Positions 12,309 through 53,285 of a stretch of DNA of 64,000 nt are shown here, in pieces. The notes beneath the pieces were generated by a model. The model worked only from the letters and a program-made list of their open reading frames with translations. It did not search any database and had not been told where the DNA came from. Made by a program: the position numbers and the translations under genes. Every line of letters begins with the position of its first letter. The first letter of the stretch is position 1. This DNA comes from Fimbriimonadaceae bacterium (lineage in GTDB: Bacteria; Armatimonadota; Fimbriimonadia; Fimbriimonadales; Fimbriimonadaceae), in NCBI GenBank assembly GCA_019187105.1, contig JABAQM010000001.1, forward strand, positions 2,510,734 to 2,574,733, given 5' to 3'.

Positions 12309-12653
12309 TGAATTCCTCTTTGCTCCATCATACGATAACGGGTAGTCCGGGGAGTCAAGAGGGATTGGCGACCGGTGGTTGCGAGCCCTCGCAACTTAAG
12401 AAGGGCAAGCCGAGGAAATCTCCGTTCCACCGCAATTTTCAGCTCCGACGGAACTAGGATGCGCATGGATCCGTTCCAAGATTTAAGTCGAATTCGGCGA
12501 TTCACGCCGGAGCGGGGGACCCAGAAATTGGGGTGTATCCAATGGATTGGAGGAGTACTTTCGGCTCTAACCCGGCAGCTAACCTCGCAGACGCATCGAA
12601 AGAGAATGTGACCGCATTCTCCCTGTCCTTATTGCACGGCAAGGAGGAAACCA
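12309..12653. other. Intergenic region, no gene recognised
   Basis: About 345 bases between divergent genes. Short open frames here lack ribosome binding sites and family features. AAGGAGG at 12641-12647 belongs to the next gene. Confidence 0.5.
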
Positions 12654-41876: not shown

Positions 41877-41950
41877 TGGCGGATCGTCTAATGGCAGGAC
41901 AACGGTTTTTGGTGCCGTATGTCTAGGTTCGAATCCTAGTCCGCCAGCCA
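41877..41950 (+). tRNA. tRNA-Gln (UUG anticodon)
   Basis: Acceptor TGGCGGA pairs with TCCGCCA; discriminator G and CCA are encoded. The anticodon loop TTTTGGT presents TTG for glutamine. TTCGAAT in the T-loop and the AATGGCA D-loop are normal. Length 74 bases. Confidence 0.95.
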
Positions 41951-41956
41951 CCGATT

Positions 41957-44203
41957 TTAGGGTTCCCGTTCCTCCCACTTCTTCAACAACACTTCGTCAA
42001 CCCTTCGAGTTGGAAGCGCAAAGTAGTCGCCGAGATAGCGTTTCAACCGTTCCTTCCCTAACTCTGTCTTTCCTGAATAGTAGAGTGCTTGCGCAATGAG
42101 CCGATCGCGTTCGCCGGAGGCAACCGGCCAGCCGCCGGTAATGCGCTCGGCACAGTGTAGTGCCCTAAAAGCATGTTGCTTCGCCAGTGCTGCAGGAGCC
42201 GCTTCTGCGACGATAAGATGCACGGAAGCAGCGCCAGGGAAGTCGCCTTGATTCGCTAGCTCAGCGGCAAGCTCCGTTGCGCCTCGACTGGCCAACTCCC
42301 ATCGCCGGGTCCGCAAGAGGAGCATGATTCGAGCCTGTTTGCCCAGGGGACCAAGGGTCTGGGCTTCGGAGAGTGTTTGCTGAACCTTCTCCCAGTCACC
42401 CATTTCGGCATAGTGAAGTGCGACGAGTTCCAGGTTTCCGCACGAATCGATCAGCATCTGGCCCTCTCTGGTCTGGCCGCGGTCCATCAATCTCCGCGCG
42501 ATCCACAGACGATGGGGCTGGGACAGCATGATAGCCTCCCCGTCCTTCAAGAGCTTGTCGAGGATCGGGTCCGCGGCCTCCCAGTTACCGAGGATGGGGC
42601 CTGCAATCGAAGCCCACAACACACGAGCAGCGGGAACTTCGGGAAGGGACTTCGCTACCCATGATGCAAGGCCGGCAATATCCTCCCAATCGGCTTCGGA
42701 TCGGGCGACAATTCGAAGTGCGGCGATGATTCGCTCGTACGTGACGTAATCGCGTCGGTCACGCAGTGCCGCCTCGACGGATGCGAACAGTTCTTCATCG
42801 CTGATGGCAGAAGCTTCGAGCTTTCGAATGGCAAGGTGAAGTGCTTGCGCTGGCGTTGGAAACTTAGCTTGCAACAGCTCCAGCCATTTCACGCTTTCTT
42901 TTCGATGGGTTTGGGATCGGAAGCCAGCCTCCGAGCACACCCTCCAAAGCCGTTGCTGCTGCCAGGGATCTCGCGCTTTTGCAGCCTCCGGTGCCGCAAT
43001 CGCGTAGGCAACCCTCCACAACGTGTGGTCGTCGGCTTGATTGGCTCGTTCCAACAGGAGCTCACTGAGTGTCGTTTTCTGAAGCGCAGTCAGCTCGATC
43101 CATTCTTGCGCGTAGACGTCTTGGTCTAGCGCAGTAATCACCGCAGCCTCGAAGTCGCCGCCGGCGATGGTCGCCAGATTTCTTGCCTCCGTCGTGCCGA
43201 GCAGGGAACCGGCAGTCTCCAGGACGCTTCGCGCCTGATTCGCGGAGAACGAATCTCTGAGCCCTGCCGTCCAATAGCGAACCCATTCTGAAGCCCTTGT
43301 CCGATCGGTAGCTGCGATGGCTATGGTGGTTTCGAGGAGGTCCTCCTGAGTCGGATTGGCAATGAACTTCAGAACCAGGGCTTCGGTTGTAGCGCCGAAA
43401 GAGTCAGCTTTCGCATTGCCGATCTCCTCGACAAGCTTGCCACCCCTCAATAGCAGGTAAGCGCCAGGACGAATGGCCGCATTGTCGAGCAGATCAAATT
43501 CACCCTCGGCGTTGAGGGTGCGACCGGCGCCAACGCTCCAGGATTGGGCGCCTTGATAAGCTTGGACTTTCGATTCGCTGACACGAAGGCCGTCACTGGC
43601 ATCTACGCTGTAGCGGGTGCCGAGTGCGACATACTCGCGCCCCTGGCACAGGATTCGAACCTTGTTCCGGCTGTCCTTGGCCTCATCGACGAGGACGTTG
43701 CCAACCAGGAGTTCCAAAGCGTTGCCCGGTCGCAGTCGAAACATCGTAACCACACCGGTCGCAACGACATTCGAGTCACCCAACTTGAGACGGACATCAC
43801 CGGAGGCGAGCACGATCTGGCTGGTGGGCATAGCGGAATTGACCGCGATCTGCTCATTCTCGGCGAATGCTTTGCCGCTCAGCAGAAGCGAATCCGGACT
43901 TGCATGACGGCTTTGACAAATTGCGAAAACGGCGACGCAGGCAGCGACTGCCGGGACAGCGAATTGCCACAACATGCGGCGAGGCACGCGGCTCTGATGG
44001 ATTTGCTCTTGGACTCGTTGTGGAACCGGATCGATGTCGATGCACTCTTTGATATGGCGCGTGACTGGTTCAAGGAGGGCTTCAAGCTTGGCGCCGCAGT
44101 CGGCACAGCTTTGGCAGTGAATCTCGACCGCTGATGCTTGCTGAGTGTCGAGCTTGCCGTCAACATAGGCCAGCAAATCACAATCTCGGCATTGAATTCT
44201 CAT
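41957..44203 (-). CDS. Large anti-sigma-like protein: zinc-finger, FecR-like and helical repeat regions, module B
   Basis: The 748-residue membrane protein. Residues 1-45 hold a cysteine-rich zinc-finger pattern (IQCRDCD, then H-C-x2-C-x2-C), typical of an anti-sigma domain. A helix lies at about 77-95 (LWQFAVPAVAACVAVFAIC). Residues of about 115-230 look FecR-like (LASGDVRLKLGDSN, VTMFRLRPGNALELLVGNV). The last 450 residues are Ala/Leu/Glu-rich helical repeats of the TPR kind. ATG 44203 overlaps the sigma stop as ATGA and follows GGGGAAGC; the longer frame to 44281 lies inside the sigma gene. Such a fusion is far larger than common anti-sigma factors. Confidence 0.75.
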   Translation of the reverse strand: MRIQCRDCDLLAYVDGKLDTQQASAVEIHCQSCADCGAKLEALLEPVTRHIKECIDIDPVPQRVQEQIHQSRVPRRMLWQFAVPAVAACVAVFAICQSRHASPDSLLLSGKAFAENEQIAVNSAMPTSQIVLASGDVRLKLGDSNVVATGVVTMFRLRPGNALELLVGNVLVDEAKDSRNKVRILCQGREYVALGTRYSVDASDGLRVSESKVQAYQGAQSWSVGAGRTLNAEGEFDLLDNAAIRPGAYLLLRGGKLVEEIGNAKADSFGATTEALVLKFIANPTQEDLLETTIAIAATDRTRASEWVRYWTAGLRDSFSANQARSVLETAGSLLGTTEARNLATIAGGDFEAAVITALDQDVYAQEWIELTALQKTTLSELLLERANQADDHTLWRVAYAIAAPEAAKARDPWQQQRLWRVCSEAGFRSQTHRKESVKWLELLQAKFPTPAQALHLAIRKLEASAISDEELFASVEAALRDRRDYVTYERIIAALRIVARSEADWEDIAGLASWVAKSLPEVPAARVLWASIAGPILGNWEAADPILDKLLKDGEAIMLSQPHRLWIARRLMDRGQTREGQMLIDSCGNLELVALHYAEMGDWEKVQQTLSEAQTLGPLGKQARIMLLLRTRRWELASRGATELAAELANQGDFPGAASVHLIVAEAAPAALAKQHAFRALHCAERITGGWPVASGERDRLIAQALYYSGKTELGKERLKRYLGDYFALPTRRVDEVLLKKWEEREP

Positions 44204-44715
44204 CGAGCTTCCCCCAGTATCTGGGTTGCGTCCGGCGGAGGGACTTCGGCCCAGTTGCGCAGCCGCACCAGGGCCCGCCAAACCCAGGATTTGACCGTTC
44301 CGACCGGCACCCGAAGGATGGCGGCAGTCTCTTCATCCGTGAACTCAAGGGCGACACGCAGCCAGACGGCTTCTCGCTGCTGATCGGGCAACGTCGCCAG
44401 CGCCTGGCGGACGAAGTACTTGTCGACGGCGGAGTCGTCGGCGAGAGTTGAGCCTATGGCTTGATCCAGTTCGAATTCTGTGTCCGGCATTTGCACTTCT
44501 CGTCGCTTCTTCTTCTGCTCTTCTGTCCGATTGGCGACATTTCGAGCGATCGTCATGAGCCACGTTCGTTCTGAGCTTTGCCACCTGAACGTGGATAGGC
44601 CTCTGTGGGCCCGGCGGAAGGTCTCGACGGTAGCGTCCTCGGCGTCATCCGGTCCGAGTCGCAGGCGCAAGTAGTTGTAGACAAATTGCGAGTGGTTCTC
44701 GAATTGCCTTTCCAT
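44200..44715 (-). CDS. ECF-type sigma factor, module B
   Basis: The 171-residue sigma-70 family protein: region 2 at about residues 10-75 (DDAEDATVETFRRAHRGLSTFR as core, then ERTWLMTIARNVANR) and region 4 at about 115-160 (LPDQQREAVWLRVALEFTDEETAAIL, then VPVGTVKSWVWRALVRLRNW). I start it at ATG 44715 (MERQFENHSQ), not at the longer frame from 44772, since the predicted -10 element lies at 44756-44761 and transcription would begin near 44749. Coupled to its anti-sigma gene by a 4-base overlap. Confidence 0.9.
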   Translation of the reverse strand: MERQFENHSQFVYNYLRLRLGPDDAEDATVETFRRAHRGLSTFRWQSSERTWLMTIARNVANRTEEQKKKRREVQMPDTEFELDQAIGSTLADDSAVDKYFVRQALATLPDQQREAVWLRVALEFTDEETAAILRVPVGTVKSWVWRALVRLRNWAEVPPPDATQILGEAR

Positions 44716-44755
44716 CAACTGTCCCGCAGGTCTGTTTCGCGACCTTCGTACTATG

Positions 44756-44784
44756 TTGATCCACGCCACCAAAGCGTTGGTTGC
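44756..44784 (-). promoter_or_regulatory. Predicted ECF promoter of module B sigma gene
   Basis: On the minus strand GCAACCA and TGGATCAA are separated by 14 bases. The same layout occurs on the plus strand at 44813-44841; the two 29-base elements match at 22 positions without a gap and point away from each other. The leader to ATG 44715 would be about 34 bases. Confidence 0.65.
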
Positions 44785-44812
44785 GCTGGGCGAAGTTTTT
44801 CAGCGCATGACC

Positions 44813-44841
44813 GCAACCATTGGTTTGTTTACCTGGATCAA
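44813..44841 (+). promoter_or_regulatory. Predicted ECF promoter of the 44885 operon
   Basis: GCAACCA and TGGATCAA with 14 bases between, the divergent partner of the element at 44756-44784. A start about 7 bases downstream gives a leader of about 37 bases that ends in AAGGAG before ATG 44885. Confidence 0.65.
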
Positions 44842-44884
44842 GACCTGCGAGGGCTGGCTGATCAAGGCCAGCGAAGGAGAATAC

Positions 44885-46042
44885 ATGAGGAAATTAGCCC
44901 AGTTCACGCGGTTCCTTTCTTTGGTAATCGTGATGTTCGCGATCGCGGGTGCAAACTGCCCCCCATCGCCTCATTCAGAACGAGAGGAGACCGCCAAAAC
45001 TGCTAGCAATGTCCACGAGCTATCGGCGGGAACCGTTGCGAGGAGAATCGACGACGTAACATACGAATTGCAGGAAGCTATCGCGAGCCTTAAGGTGGGG
45101 GACGTGGTCTTTGCGAAGCAACTAATAGGTGTCCCCGAAGGCTTTGCTATCAAGGTTGAGAAGATTGATTCTGGCCGCAGTAATACTACGATAAGTGGTT
45201 CGAAGGCAAACCTGCTGGATATTTTCTCCGAACTCTATGTAAACAAGAAGAATCTGGTTATTATGCCGCCAGGCGAGATGCGTGGCAGTACACCTGAAGA
45301 GTTTCACATTCCTGTCAGCTGGAGCCTTAGCGATGACGATGGCGATGCTCTAAGGTTTGATGGATCAGTACGCTTCAAGATTCGACTGGACATCTTGATC
45401 GATGCCGTGTTGCTGGACTTGAAAGAGTTTGACTTCAAGACAAAAGTGGACGTCGCATTTGACGGTAACATCACGCACAACTCACCGCTGTCGTTTGATA
45501 TCAACAAGCTCAAAGTATGGGAGAGTCCCCCTCTTGGTATCATCAATTGCGGTCCCTTGGCACTCGTTCCTACCATAAAGTTTAACATAAAGGCGAACGG
45601 AAAGCTTAATGTGGGGTCCGGAATCAACGTCACGGCCACGTTGCGTTCGATCTGTGGCCTGCAATTAAAGGGAGGAAGCTGGCGAGCCTATGGCGATACA
45701 GAACCGACATTCACGGTTGGTAATCCCGTGGTTTACGCGAACGCTAAAGGAGCGCTTACGTTACTGAACCCAGAATTGAGCTTTAAGTGCCTGCCAGTTA
45801 ATGCCGAACTGTATATAGGCGCGGATTTGCCAGAATTCCAGTACGAATTGGAAGCGATCTCCCAGCCCAGATCGGTGCGCTTTGACTTAGATGCGATGTT
45901 CACGGCTGAAGTTGGGATGGATGCAAACATCTTTGGCGAAAAGTTTAAGTGGAAATCGGACCCATTTGTGTTTCGTAGCATGCCCATCATTGATGGCGAG
46001 ATCACGAACGCCGACGGCGAAATAGGAGTGGACATAAAGTGA
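44885..46042 (+). CDS. Secreted protein of unknown function, module B
   Basis: The 385-residue protein has a signal-type N-terminus (MRKLAQFTRFLSLVIVMFAIAGANC). The mature part is beta-rich with repeated hydrophobic/charged alternation (for example GSVRFKIRLDILIDAVLLDLKEF pattern) and several cysteines near the middle; I recognise no domain. AAGGAG lies before ATG 44885; the longer frame starting at 44753 would cross the predicted promoter. Composition is clearly more AT-rich than the surrounding genes. Its stop overlaps the start of the lipoprotein gene as GTGA. Confidence 0.7.
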   Translation: MRKLAQFTRFLSLVIVMFAIAGANCPPSPHSEREETAKTASNVHELSAGTVARRIDDVTYELQEAIASLKVGDVVFAKQLIGVPEGFAIKVEKIDSGRSNTTISGSKANLLDIFSELYVNKKNLVIMPPGEMRGSTPEEFHIPVSWSLSDDDGDALRFDGSVRFKIRLDILIDAVLLDLKEFDFKTKVDVAFDGNITHNSPLSFDINKLKVWESPPLGIINCGPLALVPTIKFNIKANGKLNVGSGINVTATLRSICGLQLKGGSWRAYGDTEPTFTVGNPVVYANAKGALTLLNPELSFKCLPVNAELYIGADLPEFQYELEAISQPRSVRFDLDAMFTAEVGMDANIFGEKFKWKSDPFVFRSMPIIDGEITNADGEIGVDIK

Positions 46043-48057
46043 GTACTCATTCAGCCTGTAAAACAGGAATGTGGCGCGTCCTCAGAGCGGCTGTTGCGAT
46101 CGGAGCCAGTGCATGGATGCTGTCTGGGTGCGGAGGCTCTGGAGGAGCATCTACCCAAACGGAGACGTCGGACATCGTCATCGAGATCCAGTGGCCCGAG
46201 CAGAGTCGTCTCATCCCAGAAGCTTCCCAAAGCATCAGGGTATCGGCTATAGGGAATGGATCTCTTCGATCCGAAACCGTGGTTCCACGGCCCTCCGGGG
46301 GAGAAGGAACAACAACTACGAATCTGACCAACCTGCCGGCGGGTCCGGTGCGAGTAACAGCTACAGCGCATCCCACCGCAGATGGCACCGGTGTAACACA
46401 AGCCGGCGCTGAGACGCTTGTTACCCTTGCCTCAGGTGAGAAGAGGTCCGTGGCCCTGACTCTCGCTTCAACGATTGAAAGGCTTGAGGTTCAGCCGAAG
46501 ACTGTATTGCTTGATCTGGGTGCGTCGAAAACCCTGGTCATGACCGCCCTGAGTCGGGACAACGAGATCGTTCTGTTATCCAGCAATAAGATCCAGTGGT
46601 CGATTGTTGGTCCTGGTATTGTGACCTTGAGCGCAGCCGGAGGTTCAGCTATTGTCACTGCCAAAGAGCCCGGCAGCACCTCGATCCGCGTCCTCGAAAC
46701 CGAATCGGGTGTGTCCGTAACGGCGAATGTCGTTGCGGGTGGCGGAGACATCACCATTGACCCTCCTGGGTGGACGATGGGAAGCGGTAGTACTAAGAGC
46801 TTCAAGGCGACCGCTAAAACGGGCGAGCAAAGCTTCACTTGGGAAGTGGTCGAAGGAAGCGGCACGCTCGTTGATAAGAGCTCGAATCCCGTTAGCTTTC
46901 GATCCGGACCCGTCGAAGGAACGGCCATCCTGAGAGCGACGCAGACCGCCACAGGCAAGACGGGTACAGCCCTGATTCAAGTCGTGAACAAGGCCGTTGT
47001 CATCAATGGGGCCCCGTTTGTTCTGAATCCAGGCGAATCTCGAACCGTTAGCGCCACCGTACTTGGGTCGGGGGACCAGCGCGTGACCTGGACGGGATCG
47101 GGCGTGACGTTTAGTCAGGCGGACGGAAATCCGACCACGATAACGGCAGGAAGCCAGACCGGATCGTATTCGATCCGTGCGACCAGTGTCGCCCATGGAA
47201 TGATCGACGATGCCCCGGTTACCATCACCGGTGGGAATGAAACTGTCGTGGTGATCGATCCTGCCACGGCGTCCATTCGCAAGCTGGAAACATTCAAGTT
47301 CAAAGCAGTCGTAACCGGGCTGAGCGATACGAGTGTCACCTGGCGGATCGAACCCACTGCTGGGGCCTCCATCGATGCTTCCGGTAAATTCATCGCCACA
47401 AATCAAATCGGAGAGTGGCGAGTGATGGCCAAGGCAAAAGACGGGACCGAGTGTGCAGTTCCTTCGAAGATCTACGTTACCGCCGAACCTCATGACCTTA
47501 GTGTTGAATCGTCGCCAGGGGGTGTCGCCATCCAAGTAAGTCGTGCCGACGTGCAGGGTGAGAAAGATGGAACCACTTGGTTCAAGCGAAGATATACCTA
47601 CCTTGAACCGGTAACCTTGACCGCCCCTTATAAAATCTCCAATGGTAAGACTTATTTCGATCGCTGGATTTTAGTTGACGAACAAGGAAGGGTTGAGAAA
47701 ACAAGCACAGCCATAGTCGTTCCTATGGCAGGGAATACTACGGCTACTGCCAACTATGTTCCTGCTTGCGAAGTGACCGTTAAGTGCATAAACACTGATG
47801 GTAACGCAATTAATGATCCGCGCATAACCGTCGACAAGGCCGATCTTGACGGTCTGACTCAATGCACAGGATTTGGCACTTTCTATTACAGGATCTTCAA
47901 TTCGAATCCTCAGACAGTTCGGTTCACGGCTCAGGCCAGTGTCGGTGGACGAGCCTTTAAAGAATGGAAAGTTGACGATCAATTTAAAGGTACTGGGCTC
48001 AACCTAGATCTTAAAATCGATAGCAGTGCCAAGTTCGTTACGGCAGTCTACCAATGA
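46039..48057 (+). CDS. Lipoprotein with bacterial Ig-like repeats, module B
   Basis: The 672-residue protein with GTG start coupled to the upstream gene. A lipobox LSGCGG near residue 30 gives a lipidated cysteine. The body shows several BIG2-like repeats, such as PKTVLLDLGASKTL, PPGWTMGSGSTKSFKATAKTG, GAPFVLNPGESRTVSATV and PATASIRKLETFKFKAVVTG (each the start of a repeat). The end looks like a divergent bacterial-repeat domain (FDRWILVDEQGRVEKTS, ATANYVP). Probably an adhesin or scaffold at the surface, made with the 44885 protein under module B control. Confidence 0.75.
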   Translation: MSTHSACKTGMWRVLRAAVAIGASAWMLSGCGGSGGASTQTETSDIVIEIQWPEQSRLIPEASQSIRVSAIGNGSLRSETVVPRPSGGEGTTTTNLTNLPAGPVRVTATAHPTADGTGVTQAGAETLVTLASGEKRSVALTLASTIERLEVQPKTVLLDLGASKTLVMTALSRDNEIVLLSSNKIQWSIVGPGIVTLSAAGGSAIVTAKEPGSTSIRVLETESGVSVTANVVAGGGDITIDPPGWTMGSGSTKSFKATAKTGEQSFTWEVVEGSGTLVDKSSNPVSFRSGPVEGTAILRATQTATGKTGTALIQVVNKAVVINGAPFVLNPGESRTVSATVLGSGDQRVTWTGSGVTFSQADGNPTTITAGSQTGSYSIRATSVAHGMIDDAPVTITGGNETVVVIDPATASIRKLETFKFKAVVTGLSDTSVTWRIEPTAGASIDASGKFIATNQIGEWRVMAKAKDGTECAVPSKIYVTAEPHDLSVESSPGGVAIQVSRADVQGEKDGTTWFKRRYTYLEPVTLTAPYKISNGKTYFDRWILVDEQGRVEKTSTAIVVPMAGNTTATANYVPACEVTVKCINTDGNAINDPRITVDKADLDGLTQCTGFGTFYYRIFNSNPQTVRFTAQASVGGRAFKEWKVDDQFKGTGLNLDLKIDSSAKFVTAVYQ

Positions 48058-53127: not shown

Positions 53128-53222
53128 AAGCATTGGCTCACTTTTCTGGTGAGCGAAAACGGGGGAAGTCCGGCGAAAGTCCGGCACTGTGCCGCAACGG
53201 TTAAAGTCCGAATGCCCGCGAT
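53128..53222 (+). ncRNA. Cobalamin (B12) riboswitch aptamer
   Basis: The conserved core is easy to read: GGGAAGTCCGG, GAAAGTCCGGCACTGTGCCG, then GCAACGGT, and the B12 box AAGTCCGAATGCCCGC at 53205-53220. Upstream, GCTCAC (53136) pairs with GTGAGC (53149), and GCATT at 53130 can pair with AATGC at 53211 to close the aptamer. The ligand is a cobalamin. The expression platform continues to the start codon at 53339. Confidence 0.93.
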
Positions 53223-53285
53223 GCGAATGTCGGTTGGATGGCTCACGAGCATGAGCGGACGCGACACGGGCAGCACCCCGGTTGC

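Follow-up and report, generated by a model that had tools for sequence, protein, structure and literature searches.

ECF sigma factors that drive their own operon together with a neighbouring or divergent one are known from three reports (PMC8103513, PMC3426412, PMC6180224). In the EcfG general stress response, PMC8103513 describes promoters of the same sigma factor that drive both the ECF operon (nepR-ecfG) and a divergent unit (phyR), which is the arrangement proposed here. For ECF41, a bipartite promoter with a spacer of 16 +/- 1 bases is found before the sigma gene and its partner gene, as at the present locus, and the neighbouring gene is named as the sole target (PMC3426412). Our literature search turned up no work that deals with promoters of sigma factors in Armatimonadota, nor any on sigma factors of Fimbriimonadales.

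The locus described here lies in a stretch of 64,000 nucleotides from a Fimbriimonadaceae bacterium of the phylum Armatimonadota (the window; all positions refer to it unless another locus is named). At the level of sequence, it is a clear example for this phylum of a sigma factor that changes in step with its two putative promoters, and the reading proposed for it predicts start sites and control for a two-gene operon of exported proteins without known function.

Genes flanking the element pair

The gene at 44200-44715 (minus strand) encodes a protein of 171 aa with matches to Sigma70_r2 (residues 5-63) and Sigma70_r4_2 (residues 102-152), both above the Pfam cut-off, and to TIGR02937, also above cut-off. 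With sigma2 and sigma4 domains only, the predicted product is classed as an ECF (group IV) sigma factor. Its ATG start at 44715 is backed by alignment with two relatives. The next gene on the same strand (41957-44203) overlaps the sigma stop codon through ATGA and encodes a protein of 748 aa that is a probable membrane anti-sigma factor; its anti-sigma, zf-HC2 (E 0.021) and FecR (E 0.03) matches are all weak, and its relative in genome G050 passes the zf-HC2 cut-off. A tRNA gene (41877-41947, plus strand) stops some 10 bases away from where this gene ends. Elsewhere in the window, a c-di-AMP riboswitch (12476-12609, plus strand; RF00379, 73.3 bits) and an AdoCbl-II cobalamin riboswitch (53150-53224, plus strand; RF01689, 46.3 bits) were found.

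On the other side, the first gene of the divergent operon (44885-46042, plus strand) encodes a protein of 385 aa. AAGGAG stands immediately 5' of the ATG at 44885, and a signal-peptide-like stretch, recognised by eye, begins at this start. The protein has no match to a known family and its predicted fold is unusable (mean pLDDT of 34.5). The second gene (46039-48057, plus strand) overlaps the first by 4 bases and encodes a probable lipoprotein of 672 aa with weak family matches only.

The element pair at 44756-44841

Two predicted ECF-type promoters, each of the form GCAACCA-N14-TGGATCAA, lie between the divergent genes. Copy 1 (44756-44784, minus strand) points toward the sigma/anti-sigma genes and copy 2 (44813-44841, plus strand) toward the divergent secreted-protein operon, with the -35 blocks facing each other across a gap of 28 bases (44785-44812). 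The copies are identical at 22 of 29 positions, which comprise all 15 block positions and 7 of the 14 spacer positions. The original prediction had placed two inverted elements here with this identity and separation, and pattern search reproduced it exactly. It had also proposed start codons at 44715 and 44885 with leaders of 34-37 bases, and these hold: the -10 block ends 40 bases from the first ATG and 43 bases from the second, so that leaders of about 34-37 bases follow if the transcript starts some 6-7 bases beyond the block.

The exact pattern occurs twice in the genome (3,307,380 bases), both times at this locus, and there is no third copy; a genome-wide search had been proposed as a check, and across these 3.3 Mb it returned the present locus only. 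The expected count is 0.00 in shuffled windows, none of which contained the pattern. Small dyads are visible within the window copies (AACCATTGGTT and ACCAA-N4-TTGGT), and no sigma-70-type site was found in 44600-44980.

If up to 3 mismatches are allowed, the genome has many single matches (141 versus 42 in the reversed control). A wider regulon was sought among 29 of the 141 loci (L033-L061) with a cut-off of 100 aa for reading frames, 4 of them rechecked more finely, and no convincing promoter was recognised. One match overlaps the start codon of a reading frame of 298 aa, and the match at L039, a doubtful candidate, falls within short frames some 350 bases ahead of a gene. Coding sequence would be the simplest explanation for the surplus of matches relative to the control. 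As a separate observation, made by eye, several other ECF genes of Armatimonadota (L010, L012 and L014 among them) carry TTTGAAC upstream of the sigma start, which suggests another class of self-regulated ECF promoter.

Relatives of the sigma and anti-sigma genes

A first search with the sigma protein covered 61 genomes, namely the window's own (G000) and 60 relatives, and its top match outside the own genome was in G044 (E 3.8e-37, 47% identity). Across 291 genomes of the phylum this remains the top match, with 128 bits versus 79 for the next. The sigma factor of G050 scores 64 bits in a single-sequence search, yet is 46% identical when aligned to the window sigma, the low score being due to an insertion in the G050 protein. 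Matches to the 748-aa protein occur in 6 of the 291 genomes besides its own, and in G044 and G050 its relatives are in two pieces each, adjoining a sigma gene.

A profile built from the three sigma factors gives 277-307 bits to its members and 96 bits to the next protein; as the three built the profile, what it tells us is solely that no further members exist among the proteins searched. When 84,980 species genomes were scanned, the same two relatives were found again (QEUM01000018.1 and JADFGT010000123.1, with identical sites), and the remaining matches were distant ECFs among the best 80 of 125 loci. A scan with the window sigma protein alone found no relative. Mobile carriage was also considered: viral_contigs contained no relative, and the plasmid matches were distant ECFs, none of which reached 60% identity; among the 8 matches listed, the highest value was 38.7%. 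In a tree of 69 ECFs, the window, G044 and G050 proteins group together with an ultrafast bootstrap of 93 and an SH-aLRT of 34, a value that leaves the grouping not firm by itself; a locus of G020 is their next sister (98/74). A conserved tryptophan of region 4.2 was tried as a mark of the group and dropped, as it is also present in other ECFs of the order; its regular expression matched 27 of 138 control loci only, false matches included.

Conservation of the outward pair

The original prediction would have been refuted by lack of conservation in orthologous loci, and both of those found, in G044 and G050, carry an outward-facing pair in the interval that separates the start of the sigma gene from the gene upstream of it. 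In G044 the sigma-side site is GCAACCG-N14-TGGGTCAC and the outward site GCATCCA-N14-TGGGTCAC; in G050 they are GCATCCA-N13-TGGATTAA and GCAATCA-N14-TGGATTTA, respectively. The gap between paired sites is 28 bases in the window, 37 in G044 and 55 in G050, and the distance from the sigma-side block to the sigma ATG is nearly constant (40, 40 and 42 bases). On the outward side, the block lies 43 bases before the start codon in the window and 71 in G050.

Dinucleotide shuffles of the G044 and G050 regions, searched with the window motif at up to 3 mismatches, gave any match in 27/3000 and 53/3000 cases and an outward pair in 0/3000 for each relative. Likewise, 138 control ECF loci (961,397 bases, some loci overlapping or repeated, those of the window/G044/G050 sigma family having been removed first) contained 78 single matches and no outward pair. 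A degenerate element, derived from the six sites themselves, occurs twice in G044 and twice in G050, always at the locus, and four times in G000, two at the locus and two inside reading frames. These comparisons concern three genomes, a small sample.

The degenerate element was not found in the sister locus of G020. By eye, this locus (L081 3741-3904, G020:C58) shows inverted AACTCGCAAT followed by SCCCAC in both directions with equal spacing, which might be a G020 form of the pair. When 73 loci were tested for self-similarity with no motif given beforehand, the pair in the window alone stood out (15/15); G044 scored 13 (a score common to 8 of the 73 loci), G050 scored 11 and G020 scored 12. 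Since the G020 score is not above background, a fourth pair there was not accepted, and it is only a lead.

Across the three loci the blocks are conserved and the spacers poorly so, with spacers of equal length agreeing at 2-7 of 14 positions. The -10 block is TGGATCAA twice in the window, TGGGTCAC twice in G044, and TGGATTAA and TGGATTTA in G050. It differs at 0, 0 and 1 positions within genomes and at 1-4 positions between them, and the true pairing has the smallest sum of the 15 possible pairings of the six sites (1, with 3 for the next). Conserved blocks with variable spacers and a -10 version private to each genome are expected if one protein reads both sites. Sixteen bases separate the 6-base -35 block from the GGATC-like block in five of the six sites, and 15 in the other, a spacing typical of ECF promoters (16 +/- 1 in ECF41; PMC3426412). 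AAC is present in the -35 block of three of the six sites (both in the window and the sigma-side site of G044), with ATC or AAT in the others, and CGT is present in none of the -10 blocks, which have GGATC, GGGTC or GGATT instead; these are therefore not canonical AAC/CGT promoters.

The divergent products differ between genomes: 385 and 672 aa in the window, and at least 1200 aa with a Big_7 domain in G050. In G044 (L079 4205-4297) no protein gene lies downstream of the outward copy. A tRNA-Thr gene, which closely precedes the pair of putative sigma promoters, and a gene for an M42-type peptidase run in the opposite direction. A weak terminator-like hairpin (L079 4275-4287) stands about 40 bases past the outward site, one of 2 found in 441 bases where 0.5 are expected, and with a hairpin so close this copy could possibly yield a short RNA.

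Discussion

The elements are very probably divergent promoters of the ECF sigma factor whose gene occupies 44200-44715; this factor would act under anti-sigma control on its own operon and on the operon to the right, with this locus as its recognisable regulon. The original prediction that one ECF sigma factor drives both directions gains support from the outward pairs in both relatives, from the -10 version shared within each genome and from the restriction of the element, outside reading frames, to this locus. The sigma factor would bind promoters formed by a -35 block GCAACC, a 16-base spacer and a -10 block GGATCAA, once a presumed signal causes the probable membrane anti-sigma factor (41957-44203) to release it, and both directions would then be transcribed. 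Leftward, it would transcribe its own sigma/anti-sigma operon, a positive feedback with a built-in shut-off; the element stands before the sigma gene in three of three loci, which implies positive autoregulation as far as sequence can tell. Rightward, transcription would cover the two genes at 44885-48057, whose products are predicted to be exported. As far as sequence reveals it, the regulon would then consist of one locus.

It is improbable that the elements are instead operators of a separate DNA-binding regulator. Inverted site pairs can be operators and the window copies do hold small dyads, but these dyads are absent from G044 and G050, and the sigma/anti-sigma genes are the only regulator pair common to all three loci. 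The asymmetric blocks, the 16-base spacing and the near-constant distance to the sigma ATG also fit a promoter. We give equally little credence to the sigma-side copy being the sole working promoter, with the outward copy a relic or a regulator of the sigma promoter and the right operon transcribed from elsewhere. The retention of the outward copy in G044 with no protein gene downstream would agree with this, as would the unlikeness of the divergent genes between genomes. Nonetheless, the outward copy precedes a start codon by 43 bases in the window and by 71 in G050, the region 44600-44980 offered no sigma-70-type site, and the outward -10 block of G044 is identical to that of its partner. 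Chance similarity or a dispersed repeat, to which the abundance of single matches might point, has a negligible probability given that exact copies occur only here, that outward pairs recur in three loci and that the shuffles produced none.

A broader idea may be put forward tentatively, although we consider it rather unlikely: the sigma/anti-sigma genes with an outward promoter would form a portable one-locus switch, its outward side serving as a socket for unlike exported-protein genes or, in G044, a short RNA, and the sigma factor and its promoters would drift together to a non-CGT code private to each genome.

Arrangements of this kind are well known, and two distant relatives lend the present one unusually strong support at the level of sequence. 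In EcfG the divergent gene encodes an anti-anti-sigma regulator within a global regulon, whereas here the divergent genes encode exported-looking proteins and a single locus makes up the recognisable regulon. RpoE7-EcfR7 of Sinorhizobium meliloti (ECF16), a further comparable system, belongs to another phylum and has other target genes. ECF41 factors have TGTCACA/CGTC promoters and a C-terminal regulatory extension, in contrast to the GCAACC/GGATC blocks, the 171-aa sigma factor and the adjacent anti-sigma gene found here. Membership in ECF41 was considered and rejected, the -35 block of the window being GCAACCA and not TGTCACA; with sigma4 ending near residue 152 of 171, there is also no space for the ECF41 C-terminal domain. 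A similar GCAACC -35 block may already have been described for ECF promoters elsewhere. The general design is thus known, and what is new at this locus is its own block sequences.
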